64,000 bases of DNA from Carbonactinospora thermoautotrophica (lineage in GTDB: Bacteria > Actinomycetota > Actinomycetes > Streptomycetales > Carbonactinosporaceae): the NCBI RefSeq assembly GCF_001543895.1, contig NZ_JYIJ01000016.1:1-64000 (forward strand). The letters are read 5' to 3'. Position 1 is the first letter of the stretch. Each line of letters opens with the position of its first letter. Shown one piece after another: positions 646 through 10,250 of the stretch. Position numbers and translations under genes: made by a program. The notes beneath the pieces were generated by a model that saw nothing but the letters and a program-made list of their open reading frames with translations, was not told the origin of the DNA and did no database searches.

Positions 646-3600
646 TCAGAGGAGCCGCAACTGGCGTACCCGGTTACGGGGCTTTTCCCGGGCGGAGCCC
701 AGCGGGGTGACCAGCGAGGTGTCGATCGCGCGTAGGAACGGCGAGGGCTGCACTGCCCGCCGTGTCCCCTGGCGGGTGCGTTCACGGGCGTAGCTGAGGT
801 ACAGGCAGGACTGGGCGCGAGTCATGCCGACGAAGAAGAGCCGACGCTCCTCCCGGATCTCCTCCTCGTCCTGCTCGTTCGGGCTTCCCGCCGAACCGGG
901 CCAGCGGAGCGGCAGCAGTCCATCCTCGCACCCGACCAGGAACACGACCGGGAACTCCAGGCCCTTGGCGGCGTGCAGGGTGAGCAGCGAGATCCGGTCA
1001 GCGCGCGGGTCCCAGGTGTCGATCTCCACGCCGAGGGCGAGCTCGGCCTGGAACCGGTCCAGGTCGGTGCCGCAGCGCTCGGCGAGCGGGGCCAGCAGGT
1101 CGGCTGCGGCGCGCAGCCGGCTCACCCGCTCCTCGGTCGGCGTGTCGGCCCACGCGAGGGAGACCTCGGTGTCGTCGATCGCCAGCTGCACCGCGGTGCG
1201 CAGCGCCCCGGTCACCGGCCCGGGCGACGACGCGTACACCTCCCCCACGCGCCGTGCCAGCTCGGTGATCTCGAGCCGGTCCGTGAGCCGGGTGTGCGCA
1301 CGCTTCTCGCACGGCATGCCGGCCCGCGCGAACGCCTCGAGCAGCGGCTGCGCCTGGGCATCGGTCCGGTACAGGACGGCGATGTCGGCGAACGAGAGCC
1401 GCCCGTGCCCGGCGAACGTCTCGACGGCACCGGAGTCGAACGAGTGGAACGACGACCCGCCGAGCAGGGCGTCGATGGTCCGGACGACGAACTCGGCCTC
1501 GTCCTGCTCGTTCGCCGCCTCGTACCGTCCCACGACGGTGTGCTGGTCGTCGGCGCGCACCGCTTCGAGCCGCCGGTCACGGACCAGGGTCGTGGGCGCG
1601 ATGGCCTGGAGCGCGCCTGCCACGATCCGCGCCGCGGACCGGTAGTTGCGGGTGAGCTGCACGACGCGGGCCGTCGGGAAGTCCTGCTGGAACCGCAGGA
1701 AGAACCCCACGTCCGCACCCCGGAACCGATAGATGGCCTGATCCGGGTCGCCGATCGCGCACAGGTTGGCGTCCGGGGCGGTGAGCAGGCGCAGCAGGCG
1801 GTACTGCAGCTCGTCGACGTCCTGGTACTCGTCGACGGAGATCCACGGGTAGCGCGCCCGGTACGCGGCGGCCAGCTCCAGGTCCGAACCGAGCAGCGTC
1901 ACCGGGATCGTGATCAGGTCGTCGAAGTCGACCTGGTCGCGGGCGCGCAGCGCCTTGTCGTACTGGTCGAGCAGCTCGGCGGCATCCGGCGGGGGCGCCT
2001 CCCCCAGGGCCCGGGCCCGCTTGGCGGCTGACACCGCCTCCAGGGCCTTGCGGGCCTCGCTGCGCCGGTTCTCCCCCAGCAGGTCGGCCAGGAGCGCCAG
2101 CCGGCCGGCCTCGTCGGCGATGCCGACCGTCTCGCCGAGGCCGAGCCTCGCGGCCTGCTCGCGGACGATCCGCAGGCCGAGCCCGTGGAAGGTGGTGACG
2201 GTGATCCGGTCTGCGGCGTCCGGGACGAGCGCGGCGAGCCGTTCCTGCATCTCCTGCGCGGCCCGCCGGGTGAAGGTGACCGCCAGGCACTCCTCCGGTC
2301 GGGCTGTCCCGGTGGCGACCAGGTGCGCGATCCGGTGTGTCAGGGTGCGCGTCTTGCCGGTGCCGGGGCCGGCGATGATCAGCAACGGCCCGGAGGTCAC
2401 CGAAGCCGCGGCCCGCTGGTCAGGGTCGAGTGCGCCCAGCAGGGTCCCGTCCCCGGCCGCGGGCGTCGCCGCGGATTCGGTGCCCGACTCCAGCTCGGGT
2501 GTCAGCGGCGGCGGGTCCTGCGCGGCGGCCTTCTTCCGCTGTCGCTTCCCGGGCCGTTCGGCGACCAGCCCGGCCGGGTCGAACAGGGTCGGGACCGTGC
2601 CGGGGGATTCCAGTTCCCCGGGCTCGAAGAGTCGGATGACCCCGTACTCCCCGTCGTAGCCGGCCTCGCGGATCACCTGCCCGCGCCGCAGCCGGTCGAT
2701 CGCCTCCGCGAGCAGTGGCGAGCCGGCCCGCCCGATCTCGTCCAGCGGCACCTCGTTGAGGATCCCGAGCTCGGGACCGAGCTTGGCGACCAGGTCGGCG
2801 ACCTCCCCGAGGACCGCCTTGCTCTTCGGGCCGACGTCCAGCAGCTCGCTCACGATCTCCGGCAGCGGGACCAGGCTGCGGTAGTCGGCGGCGCCCTCGG
2901 GACGTACGCCCGCGGGCCGGTCCGCGAGTTCCTCGACCCGGGCGAGCACGCCGACGGTCAGCGGCTTGCCGCAGACCGGGCAGCGGCCCCCGTATCGGCG
3001 GGTCTCGGCCGGCTCGAGCCGGACATCGCACTTGCGGTGCCCGTCCAGGTGGTACTTGCCCTCCTCGGGGAAGAATTCCACGGTCCCGCCGTACCCCTCG
3101 CCGGTCTGGAGCGCCCGGCGCATCGCGAAGTAGTCCAGCTCGGTGTCGAACACGCAGGCCTCGCGTCCCAGCATGGGCGGGGAGTGAGCGTCGGAGTTGC
3201 TGACCAGCCGGTAGCGGTCGAGCGCCGAGAGCCGCCAGTTCATCTCGGGATCGGAGGACAGCCCGGTCTCCAGCGCGAAGATGTGGTCGGCGAGGTCCGC
3301 GTAGCAGTCCGCGACCGCGTCGAACCCCGACTTCGAGCCCAGGACCGCGAACCAGGGCGTCCAGATGTGGGCCGGCACGAGGTAGGAGGCCTCGCCGGAC
3401 TCCAGGGTGATCTCCAGCAGGTCACGCGAGTCCAGGCCGAGGATCGGGCGGCCGTCGGACCGGATGTTGCCGATACGCTCCAGCCGCCGGTTGATCGCCG
3501 CAGCGGTGTCCAGGTCCGGCACGTAGATCAGGTGGTGAACCTTGCGGGTCTTGTCACCCCGCTTGTAGATCGTGCTGACCTCGACCGAGAGCATGAACCG

Positions 3601-3858
3601 GACCGGCGTCCGGCAGGTCGGGGGCAGCGTGCGCAGGATCTGCCGGTCCAGGTCGTCGCGCAGCTTGTACAGCCCGGGCTCGGCCGGCACCAGGTTCTCC
3701 CGCAGGTGTTCGTACCACGCGGGGTGCGTGAAGTCGCCAGTGCCGATGACCATGATGCCCTTGCGCCGCGCCCACCAGGCCAGATGCTCCAGATCACAGT
3801 CCTTGCTACAGGCGCGGGAGTACTTGGAGTGGATGTGGAGGTCGGCGTAGAAGCGCAC
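646..3858 (-). CDS. PHP domain-UvrD helicase fusion protein
   Basis: About 1070 residues in two parts. Residues 1-300 are a PHP-type metal-dependent domain: the start RFYADLHIHSKYSR carries the HxH metal motif (residues 8-10), and NSDAHS lies at 221-226; a CPVCG zinc-ribbon half follows at 293-297. Residues 470-1070 are a superfamily 1A UvrD/PcrA-type helicase: Walker A AGPGTGKT at 496-503, Walker B DEYQD at 676-680, and TLHAAKGLEFPVVFL near the C-terminus. This fusion is a known actinobacterial architecture; a role in DNA repair or replication is inferred from the helicase part. I chose the GTG at 3858 because the conserved PHP motif begins there; a GTG 24 bases upstream (3882) is possible. 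The open frame runs on to 4566 but that extension does not look coding in this frame. Confidence 0.9.
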   Translation of the reverse strand: MRFYADLHIHSKYSRACSKDCDLEHLAWWARRKGIMVIGTGDFTHPAWYEHLRENLVPAEPGLYKLRDDLDRQILRTLPPTCRTPVRFMLSVEVSTIYKRGDKTRKVHHLIYVPDLDTAAAINRRLERIGNIRSDGRPILGLDSRDLLEITLESGEASYLVPAHIWTPWFAVLGSKSGFDAVADCYADLADHIFALETGLSSDPEMNWRLSALDRYRLVSNSDAHSPPMLGREACVFDTELDYFAMRRALQTGEGYGGTVEFFPEEGKYHLDGHRKCDVRLEPAETRRYGGRCPVCGKPLTVGVLARVEELADRPAGVRPEGAADYRSLVPLPEIVSELLDVGPKSKAVLGEVADLVAKLGPELGILNEVPLDEIGRAGSPLLAEAIDRLRRGQVIREAGYDGEYGVIRLFEPGELESPGTVPTLFDPAGLVAERPGKRQRKKAAAQDPPPLTPELESGTESAATPAAGDGTLLGALDPDQRAAASVTSGPLLIIAGPGTGKTRTLTHRIAHLVATGTARPEECLAVTFTRRAAQEMQERLAALVPDAADRITVTTFHGLGLRIVREQAARLGLGETVGIADEAGRLALLADLLGENRRSEARKALEAVSAAKRARALGEAPPPDAAELLDQYDKALRARDQVDFDDLITIPVTLLGSDLELAAAYRARYPWISVDEYQDVDELQYRLLRLLTAPDANLCAIGDPDQAIYRFRGADVGFFLRFQQDFPTARVVQLTRNYRSAARIVAGALQAIAPTTLVRDRRLEAVRADDQHTVVGRYEAANEQDEAEFVVRTIDALLGGSSFHSFDSGAVETFAGHGRLSFADIAVLYRTDAQAQPLLEAFARAGMPCEKRAHTRLTDRLEITELARRVGEVYASSPGPVTGALRTAVQLAIDDTEVSLAWADTPTEERVSRLRAAADLLAPLAERCGTDLDRFQAELALGVEIDTWDPRADRISLLTLHAAKGLEFPVVFLVGCEDGLLPLRWPGSAGSPNEQDEEEIREERRLFFVGMTRAQSCLYLSYARERTRQGTRRAVQPSPFLRAIDTSLVTPLGSAREKPRNRVRQLRLL

Positions 3859-4702
3859 AAGCCAGATCTTGTCACGATCCACCGCCAGCACGCGCCTCGG
3901 GCGGGTGGCGCGGCCGGGTACCGGCCCCGCCTGCCGCACGCCCAGCGTCTTCAGGGAATACCCCCCTCCCGGGGGCTCCCCCGCGATCATCGTCGCAGAG
4001 CGGGCGGGGGGAACGCCACCAGAAGCGCGCGGGTTGTGGATAACCCGGCCGGATCCACCCGGATTCACCCGAAGAGGTGACCCTAAGGGCCTGTCACCAG
4101 GCCTGCGGGGCGTCCAACGCGACCGCCCGTGACCAGACGACGGTCCATGGCGGGGTGGCTGCCCCTCACCAGCTCCCGGTCGCGCAGCGCGGTCCGCGTG
4201 CCCGCGGGCATGACCGGCTGCCCGTCCACGGTGAAGCCTGGAGGGAACCAGGTCGTCCGGGACGGGCGGGAAGCGCCCGAGGGCGGGCCCCTGGCTGCGC
4301 TCGCGGCCGGCGATCCCGGCAGCCCGGGCTGCTCCAGCCGCGGAGCACGGCAGCGAGGCACCGCCGACAGCCCGGGCGGCGCGCCCTCGGCGTCGTACCC
4401 GCCTCAGGTGGCGCCCACGTCCAGCATGGTGGCCCGGAACGTGAACACCGTGGCTCGGCAGAAATCGGCGGCGCGGAAGGGTGACCTGAGCGCCAGCCGC
4501 CGCTGCTGGGCGAAGGCCACCACCTCCCCCATCGGCGCGCCCGAGTCGACGGCGATCGCCACTCACCGGTTGGCCATCGTGTTCTTCCCCATGAGGCCCG
4601 GAACCGCGCCGAGGCCTGCAGTCGTTCCACCCCCGACCCCCGTGTGGATCGAAGCCGTGCCGAGCGTGCGGACACAGCCCCAGGGCAGGAGCGATATCGC
4701 GA
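3859..4702. other. Long gap with possible decayed coding sequence
   Basis: No intact gene is evident in these 844 bases. On the minus strand, one frame between about 4662 and 4083 reads as coding-like blocks broken by stops: a block ending GLMGKNTMANR then TGA (4565-4563), a block from VAIAVDSGAPMGEVV to ATMLDVGAT then TGA, and a third containing FTVDGQPVMPAGTRTALRD. All three use G/C-ending codons almost throughout. I do not recognise the protein. The blocks could be remnants of one gene lost by point mutations, or chance open frame in GC-rich DNA. Confidence 0.35.
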
Positions 4703-7129: not shown

Positions 7130-7419
7130 TCCGCTCTCCTCCGTCGTCGCCCCGGGACTCGCCGCCCTCCGGCAAGTGTGCAACGAAGCACGTCTGGGGC
7201 GGACACGGATGCTGCTCCGCACGGGGGGCGTGAGTCCCGCTCCTGAGCGAGAAGGACCAGGCAGGCAGCCTCGTTGTCGCGGCACCGGAAGTCACCAAGA
7301 TTTGGATCCATCCGGGTGACGGAGAAACCGTCAGGCGCGGCCGGCGACGCTGCCGGGTCATGCCATTGCCAGGCTGGTCGGGAGTCCTCAGTGCCCTCCA
7401 GGGTCCGCCACCCCCGACC

Positions 7420-7800
7420 GCCCGGGCGACACGAGCACGTCGAACTGCACGACGGCGGCCGGGGTGCGGAAATACGGCTCGTCCAGCGGCGCCCCGTGGA
7501 CGGTCACCCGACCCTGGTCGTCGCAGCACCTGACCCGATCGCGGCCGTTCACGCGCTTGATCAGGCCCTGCTGTCGGAGGACAGCGGCCCGACAGACACC
7601 AGCGTCTGCTCGCCGTAGCGCGGCACCGGGCGGTCTGCCATCCAGCCGCCGGGGATGACGACGCGCCGCGGTTCGGCCCCGAGCCCAGCTTGTCCCCGAG
7701 CGTCCGCTCGGGTGGTGTCCCCCTCGAGCCGGACAGGATCTCGAACGCCTGGGCCAGGAACGTCTTGACCAAACGACCAGCGGCGACCGTGAGCAGCGTC
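7420..7800 (-). pseudogene. Decayed signal peptidase gene
   Basis: Between the intact copies 1 and 2, the minus strand reads LVKTFLAQAFEILSGS at about 7780-7730, clearly the membrane-exit and catalytic-serine region of a signal peptidase (compare LVKTFLVQAFYIPSGS in copy 2). The Met after Ser is lost and frames shift soon after. Farther on, 7460-7560 is nearly identical at DNA level to copy 1 around its RVTVNGAPLDEPY segment (6640-6740), and 7435-7460 matches copy 1 just after its GDH motif. Large internal pieces are deleted, including most of the catalytic-lysine region. It begins almost exactly where copy 2 ends (stop at 7799), so it is a tandem duplicate that decayed. No product is expected. 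Confidence 0.85.
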
Positions 7801-8671: not shown

Positions 8672-9517
8672 CTAAACTCCGTTCGGCTCACGTCTGCGCG
8701 CGGGTGGCCGGGCGCGCTTGCGCTCCCACCGGCGGCGGGCCGCGAGGACCGGCGTCGCACCCGCGACACCCAGCGCGAACGGGGCGGCATCCACCACCGG
8801 ATCCGCGACCGCGCGGAACGACCGCTGGAAGGTCTCCGGCAGGGGCAGCCCACCCACCCGGCTCGGGGGCCACACGATAAGGATCGCTCGACCCACCACG
8901 CTATCGGTGGGAACCGTTCCCTTGCCTGGAAGGTCCATGTGGTATCGCGAGTCGCCGGACACCTCCCGATGATCGCCCATCACCCACAAGCGCCCCTCCG
9001 GCACTGTCACGTCGAAGGGATCCTTGGAGGGACGGTTGCCCGGGTACAGGTACGGCTCATCCAGCGGCACCCCGTTGACGGTCACCCGACCCTGGGGGTC
9101 GCAGCAGCGCACCCGGTCCCCGCCGACCGCGATCACGCGCTTGATGAGATCCTTCTCGCCGGCGGGCGGCAGCAGCCCGATGAACACCAGCACGCGTTTT
9201 CCGTACGTGAGCAGCGGGTTGGCCGGTTTCGGATCCGGCTGGTCGGGCAGCCACCCGCCGGGGTCACGGAAAACGATCACCTGGCCCCGCTCGACCGGCC
9301 GGCCGAGCTTGTGGTCGAGCTTGCTGACCAGCACCCGGTCACCGACGAGCAGCGTGTTGGCCATCGAGTCGGAGGGGATGTAGAACACCTGGACCAGGAA
9401 CGTCTTGATCAGCAGCGCCAGCACCAGCGCGACCCCGGCCAGGAGCGGCACCTCCCACCAGTGACCCTGCCGGATCCTCCGGGGACGGCGTCGACGCCGG
9501 ACGGCATGCCTACCCAC
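8672..9517 (-). CDS. lepB: Type I signal peptidase (copy 3)
   Basis: 281 residues. A basic N-terminus (RHAVRRRRRPRRIR) precedes a membrane segment at about 23-38; IPSDSMANTL holds Ser51, DLIKRVIAVGGD holds Lys126, and GDHREVSGDSRYH is intact, so it should be active. The C-terminus has a second moderately hydrophobic stretch (APFALGVAGATPVLA) followed by many Arg and Lys. I chose GTG 9517, which overlaps the end of copy 4 by eight bases with GGAG about ten bases upstream; the open frame continues upstream but only as the shadow of copy 4. Confidence 0.93.
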   Translation of the reverse strand: MGRHAVRRRRRPRRIRQGHWWEVPLLAGVALVLALLIKTFLVQVFYIPSDSMANTLLVGDRVLVSKLDHKLGRPVERGQVIVFRDPGGWLPDQPDPKPANPLLTYGKRVLVFIGLLPPAGEKDLIKRVIAVGGDRVRCCDPQGRVTVNGVPLDEPYLYPGNRPSKDPFDVTVPEGRLWVMGDHREVSGDSRYHMDLPGKGTVPTDSVVGRAILIVWPPSRVGGLPLPETFQRSFRAVADPVVDAAPFALGVAGATPVLAARRRWERKRARPPARRREPNGV

Positions 9518-10250
9518 CCCGCCGCTCTCCGGAAGCGTCGACCGCCCGAGAGTTCGCCAGCGGCCAGTACACGAAGGTGACCCGGCCGAACACCCGGTCC
9601 AGCGGCACGACACCGCCGATGCCCGGCACCGGGTACTTGCCGGCGCTCGGCGGCAGGTCCCGGTTGTCGCCCATGAGGAAGACCGCGTCCTGCGGCACCC
9701 TGATCGAGAACGGCGGCATGTCGGCGGACGAGAACCGGGCCACGTAGGGCTCCTCCAGCGGTTTCCCGTTGACGAGAAGCCGTCCCTCGGCGTCGCAGCA
9801 GCGCACCCGGTCGCCGGGTTGGCCGATGACCCGCAGCGCCATGGCGTACTCCGGGTCGTCGACACCGAACCAACGGCTGACCGGGATCAGTTCCTGGGCC
9901 AGGCCCTCCTTCGGCAGCCGCGTCGTCGGGACCGGGGTGAGGACGCCGGCCACGTCCGCGACCACGATGTCGCCGCGGCGCGGATGCGCGTCGCGGTAAG
10001 CCCGCTTGTCGATCAGGACACGGTCGCCGGCGTGCAGGGTGTCGGCCATGGCGTTCTCGGGCACATAGTACGGCTCGACGAGGTACCACTTGAGCGCCGT
10101 TGCCAGGGCGATCGCCAGCACGGCGGCGATGCCGAACCGGATCCAGACCCGGCGGTTCGCGGGTGGACGCGACCGCGGCTCCGGGGCGCCGGCCGGATCA
10201 GCCGGTCCCCCGGAGCCGCGGTCGGGCACGCCCTGGTCGTTGTCGTCCAT
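9510..10250 (-). CDS. Signal-peptidase-like protein lacking the catalytic Ser-Lys pair
   Basis: 246 residues, clearly the S26 signal peptidase fold: membrane segment at about 38-56, RVIGQPGDRVRCCD, LVNGKPLEEPYV and FLMGDNRD. But the motif holding the nucleophile reads VPENAMADTL, with Ala67 in place of Ser, and the lysine position in YAMALRVIG is Leu139. The SxDSR part of box E is also absent (GDNRDLPPSAGKYP). By family knowledge it should not cleave signal peptides. The reading frame is otherwise intact with normal codon use, which argues for a retained non-proteolytic role. First signal-peptidase gene after rplS, 61 bases downstream. Start at ATG 10250 (MDDNDQG). Confidence 0.88.
   Translation of the reverse strand: MDDNDQGVPDRGSGGPADPAGAPEPRSRPPANRRVWIRFGIAAVLAIALATALKWYLVEPYYVPENAMADTLHAGDRVLIDKRAYRDAHPRRGDIVVADVAGVLTPVPTTRLPKEGLAQELIPVSRWFGVDDPEYAMALRVIGQPGDRVRCCDAEGRLLVNGKPLEEPYVARFSSADMPPFSIRVPQDAVFLMGDNRDLPPSAGKYPVPGIGGVVPLDRVFGRVTFVYWPLANSRAVDASGERRGG

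Follow-up and report, generated by a model that had tools for sequence, protein, structure and literature searches.

A predicted non-catalytic signal peptidase I paralogue in the rplS-lep locus of Carbonactinospora thermoautotrophica, and recurrent dead copies in Actinomycetia

The first gene after rplS in Carbonactinospora thermoautotrophica, here termed P0001, encodes a member of the signal peptidase I family that is predicted, with very little room for doubt, to have no signal-peptidase activity; judged from alignment, its active site is lost and its scaffold is preserved. The pattern of these losses, together with the analogy of dead copies in a separate lineage (family f36), indicates that P0001 is probably kept by selection as a protein. 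By analogy with characterised homologues, we lean towards the view that it is a pseudoprotease whose role would be to bind, without cleavage, either exported chains or the active copies. In the housekeeping lep locus, retained dead signal peptidases are a real and recurrent phenomenon, and residue and tree comparisons point to at least three independent losses in Actinomycetia including that of P0001, two of which converge on the same Ala/Leu pair.

Results

The rplS-lep locus

Carbonactinospora thermoautotrophica, of which strains UBT1, H1, P1-2 and StC have been described, was previously named Streptomyces thermoautotrophicus (PMC9977764, PMC4735515). Its genome of 5.13 Mb is assembled in 19 contigs, encodes two large carbon monoxide dehydrogenase subunits scoring above the family cut-off, and is the sole representative of its family among the genomes compared. 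The window, by which we mean the whole stretch of 64,000 nucleotides analysed, is one end of a contig. Separately from the lep genes, it holds a long minus-strand frame (646-4566) in which a PHP-like domain joined to a UvrD-like helicase was recognised by eye.

Minus-strand P0001, P0002, P0003, a broken remnant and P0004 occupy the interval between rplS and rnhB. P0001 (9510-10250, minus strand) lies next to rplS (50S ribosomal protein L19; 10312-10659, minus strand), its upstream neighbour, and encodes 246 aa from an ATG start to a TAG stop with zero internal stops. In G+C-rich DNA an open frame by itself says little about whether a gene is present, and long wrong-frame ORFs were also listed in the window; P0001 is regarded as a gene because it matches family profiles over its full length, namely PF10502 (Peptidase_S26; residues 37-229, 100.5 bits, cut-off 22.9) and TIGR02227 (signal peptidase I; 103.1 bits, cut-off 47). 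All four intact proteins of the cluster exceed the cut-offs of both profiles. The G+C content of P0001 by codon position (0.75/0.51/0.91) resembles that of nearby ffh, glnD and trmD, and the normal frame, length and codon use ascribed to the gene in an earlier sequence-only reading hold. The ATG has no clear Shine-Dalgarno sequence upstream, and scans for sigma-70 promoters and terminators, which are uninformative at high G+C, returned none.

The three other intact copies are of the active type, with both Ser and Lys, as the sequence-only reading had stated, and with a box E of the form GDHRxxSxDS. P0002 (8672-9517, minus strand) starts at a GTG that overlaps the stop of P0001 (GGAG...GTGGGTAG), and this overlap, with GGAG upstream, means that the two genes are probably translationally coupled. 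P0003 (7799-8671, minus strand) starts at a GTG immediately after the P0002 stop, and P0004 (6389-7129, minus strand) at a TTG after GGAG, read by eye. Between P0003 and P0004 lies a decayed lepB remnant (about 7280-7793, minus strand), 67-81% identical in nucleotides to P0003 and P0004, which consists of pieces in two frames with stops and large deletions. The remnant and P0001 show opposite patterns, the remnant having kept its catalytic Lys codon and lost its frame.

Loss of catalytic residues in P0001

Box B of P0001, EPYYVPENAMADTL (residues 59-72; 10035-10076, minus strand), aligns with EPFQIPSGSMMPTL of E. coli. Alanine had been read at the nucleophile position in VPENAMADTL, and it is indeed Ala67 (codon 10050-10052) that takes the place of the nucleophile Ser, with no Ser, Thr or Cys at that position; the first Ser of the box, also conserved, is Glu65. 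Box D reads AMALRVIGQPGD, and the reported replacement of the general-base lysine by leucine was recovered as Leu139 (codon CTG, 9834-9836, minus strand), with neither Lys nor His there. Box E had been called degenerate, and rightly so: GDNRDLPPSAGKY (residues 194-206; 9633-9671, minus strand) was aligned with GDNRDNSADSR of E. coli, and against the GDHRxxSxDSR pattern the box reads GDNRDLPPSAGK, in which GDNR is retained and the Ser, Asp, Ser, Arg and His columns are gone. Among these are the Ser and Asp with a supporting role for the lysine and the active site (S200P, D202S). With both dyad residues, nucleophile and general base, missing, and with them the first box B Ser and the lysine-supporting residues of box E, P0001 is predicted to be non-proteolytic.

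The distribution of losses was assessed by aligning P0001 with 226 different active (Ser/Lys) Actinomycetia copies, a column being counted as conserved at ≥85%. P0001 retains 35 of the 47 conserved columns, and its 12 losses are Q59E, F61Y, S65E, S67A, V80I, F98A, K139L, S200P, D202S, S203A, R204G and H206Y. Box B, the lysine and box E together have lost 10/16 conserved columns, against 2/31 elsewhere (Fisher p 7e-5); counting the four boxes in full gives losses of 11/26 against 1/21 (p 0.006). These p-values are indicative, since the column set, though it matches the known boxes, was picked post hoc. The columns retained include Arg92-Gly93, Arg140-Val141, Gly146-Asp147, the Cys151-Cys152 pair, Asn161-Gly162 (VNG), Glu167, Tyr169, Val185-Pro186, Gly194-Asp195 and Trp229-Pro230.

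Predicted structure

The AlphaFold2 model of P0001 (39 sequences) has a mean pLDDT of 77.6 and a pTM of 0.72, and is poor at residues 105-130. It shows the strands of a signal peptidase and a single N-terminal transmembrane helix (residues 33-56; 10083-10154, minus strand; pLDDT 90-96 at residues 31-60), so that P0001 is predicted to have both the N-terminal anchor and the beta fold of the family. Among solved structures, Foldseek matched the model best to the signal peptidases of E. coli and S. aureus and to SipA (4n31), with E values for signal peptidases down to 7.5e-8. SipA was the best non-catalytic structural match (TM-score 0.70-0.75 on the SipA length, rmsd 4.2-4.9), and P0001 shares with SipA-type pseudoproteases a signal peptidase fold, here predicted, that is without the Ser-Lys dyad. 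By alignment with E. coli, P0001 retains the cleft-side residues Pro64, Met68, Leu72, Met193 and Gly194; Tyr61 and Val63 are conservative, and positions 137-138 (Met, Ala) differ.

Relatives and placement of P0001

P0001 groups in the tree with the Streptomyces copies that are first after rplS (100/99), which share its locus position. This is the SipW position of the SipW/X/Y/Z cluster. Grouping with the paralogues of the window itself is not rejected by the AU test (p 0.25); position and tree favour an origin from the first copy, the one at the SipW position. The end branch of P0001 is the longest in the tree, at 2.2 changes per column, or 2.95 after other long rows were removed. Identity to the Streptomyces first copies is at most about 43%, and no closer orthologue was found in 395 genomes of the class, in 394 of the order or in GTDB genome contigs.

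Conservation of Ala/Leu in the first gene after rplS of related genomes, which the sequence-only reading had offered as a check on its interpretation, did not materialise: unlike P0001, the first copy has Ser and Lys in 17/17 of the Streptomyces and Kitasatospora-type clusters examined. Four f3 clusters carry two lep copies each, both Ser/Lys. Ser/Lys in these first copies is, taken literally, the sign that the earlier reading had named as refuting it; because P0001 has the longest end branch, Ser/Lys in Streptomyces at such a distance does not point to recent loss.

Dead second copies in family f36

When catalytic residues were surveyed in 265 signal peptidase ORFs from Actinomycetia loci, 252 had Ser/Lys, and the dead ones outside the window, setting aside ORFs cut by the locus end and the remnant, all belong to family f36. 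In genus g93, 4/4 genomes have Ala/Leu in the second lepB after rplS (L165:5122-6018, L166:4188-5129, L265:1698-2492 and L266:2406-3194). This second copy is dead in 10/10 genomes of genus g108 (L162:3786-4784, L267:1746-2372, L269:801-1634, L270:1515-2678, L271:1865-2746, L272:1873-2637, L273:2835-3695, L274:828-1700, L275:1817-2851 and L276:2750-3508), where the pairs are Ala/Met (two), Gly/Met, Ala/Ala (two), Ala/Val, Ser/Glu (two) and Ser/Gly (two). These 14 copies form one clade (95/84). Among the other f36 genomes examined, a dead second copy occurs only in one g87 genome (L164:2837-3571; Ser/Glu, the Lys being replaced), on a long branch apart from the clade of 14. Each of these f36 genomes also carries the active first copy, one of them on another contig.

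Between the closest dead f36 pairs dN/dS (Nei-Gojobori) is 0.09-0.34 at a dS of about 0.85-1.3, compared with 0.05-0.14 for active copies, and it rises for more distant, saturated pairs. Dead lep-locus copies can therefore be retained by selection over long periods while their catalytic residues vary freely. Like P0001, the dead f36 copies are in frame and share a tandem lep arrangement with an active copy, and four of them have exactly Ala/Leu; unlike P0001, they are second copies of a separate lineage and mostly keep box E (GDxRxxAxDSR).

Two further cases differ at the nucleophile position. The third tandem lepB of Bdellovibrionales-type loci (L058:6814-7545, L063:6674-7384, L065:6654-7403) has Ala there with the Lys kept (KIPTEAMVPT and similar), and an acidobacterial signal peptidase-like ORF (L067:5689-6573) has Gly, again with the Lys kept.

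Discussion

Retention of P0001 and its alternatives

The proposal that P0001 is kept as a non-proteolytic protein is strongly supported in its second half, the catalytic residues being gone; the retention part is probable and draws on the loss pattern and the f36 analogy. The main rival, which we regard as unlikely though deserving serious weight, is that P0001 is decaying: catalysis became dispensable given the other copies, with too little time since then for the frame to have been disrupted. Three active copies would make a fourth redundant, the cluster already contains one remnant, and both the Ser/Lys state of all related first copies and the very long branch of P0001 speak against retention, the latter fitting relaxed constraint as well. 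Decay nevertheless accounts poorly for losses concentrated in the active site with 29 of the 31 other conserved columns kept, as neutral drift that took 10 of the 16 catalytic columns would hardly have spared the others (binomial 8e-11, assuming equal loss rates). Such drift should also have yielded stops and frameshifts, according to a crude model with assumed indel ratios.

It is improbable that the frame is maintained only for translational coupling to P0002, the protein itself being idle. The stop-start overlap, the GGAG just upstream of it and the active copy that directly follows are what such an arrangement would look like, but coupling needs an open frame and not the retained Cys151-Cys152, VNG, Glu167, Tyr169, VP and WP residues. 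Still less credible is that P0001 remains a protease with relocated catalytic residues such as Glu65 or Ser202. The catalytic residues of a pseudoenzyme may, in principle, have shifted to other positions, and Glu65 is two residues from the former nucleophile; against this, no Ser, Thr or Cys stands at the nucleophile, no Lys or His at the base, and the box E support is missing, and in SipA the residues at the two former catalytic positions contribute nothing to activity (PMC4049620). Sequencing or assembly error, for which no support was found, can in practice be dismissed, since twelve conserved columns differ across separate boxes with the frame intact and codon positions normal.

A possible role at the secretion exit site

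On the preferred reading, P0001 would be a membrane-anchored signal peptidase fold that should be unable to cut by the known mechanism, since it has neither the dyad of nucleophile and base nor the supporting residues of box E. Its scaffold and most of its hydrophobic cleft-side positions appear to be retained. The best understood precedent is SipA of S. pyogenes, in which Ser and Lys are replaced, the fold and cleft are kept, and the protein is required for pilus polymerisation (PMC4049620). We take P0001 as a candidate binding protein at the secretion exit because SipA is its nearest understood relative, with the fold and cleft but without the dyad. Its most likely binding targets, on the outer side of the membrane, would be the signal-peptide region of an exported chain or the active peptidases encoded next to it, and P0001 may act as a holder, assembly factor or modulator at the secretion exit site, as proposed for SipA; the stop-start overlap suggests that it would be made together with P0002. 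We infer its expression, its binding and the partner that it would serve. A specifically SipA-like binding of clients or partners is a tentative suggestion from analogy, and the chaperone or regulator of active copies envisaged by the sequence-only reading is plausible on the same grounds.

The two proteins differ in that the dyad is replaced by Asp and Gly in SipA and by Ala and Leu in P0001, the box E Ser being replaced in both, and in that SipA, which has homologues in pilus islets, is encoded with pilus genes and P0001 in the housekeeping rplS-lep locus. A pilus operon with sortase and pilin genes was not found at the P0001 locus, where the neighbours are rplS and the lepB copies, and the one sortase detected in the genome is on another contig; a pilus role for P0001 is thus without local support. 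A role as an inhibitor decoy (an arylomycin sponge) was also considered. P0001 has Glu59-Pro60-Tyr61 (10068-10076) where the active copies have Gln-Ala/Val-Phe, and Pro60 occupies the position at which Pro lowers arylomycin binding in signal peptidases, which disfavours such a role, the active copies having Ala or Val.

A further precedent, SpsA of S. aureus, is also without the two catalytic residues and is dispensable, SpsB being the active, essential enzyme (PMC12445088). In its missing residues SpsA is like P0001, but it comes from a different phylum. The spsA and spsB genes are neighbours in S. aureus, and SpsA has no known function. Non-catalytic signal peptidases are already known; a search of the open-access literature turned up no account of such dead proteins in Actinomycetia, nor of a dead copy in their housekeeping lep locus that recurs and is under selection in one clade.

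Implications

Bacterial signal peptidase I is normally viewed as a stand-alone enzyme. The present findings suggest that its fold has a second, non-cutting job outside pilus operons, for which the f36 pairs and P0001 provide concrete, testable cases: dead copies beside live ones, of at least three origins in Actinomycetia, with purifying selection measurable in one clade. A broader and so far speculative idea is that Actinobacteria repeatedly convert one tandem lep copy into a non-cutting subunit that partners an active copy. If true, the signal peptidase system of some bacteria would consist of two parts, a live subunit and a dead one, and the latter might, for example, hold substrates or regulate its active partner.
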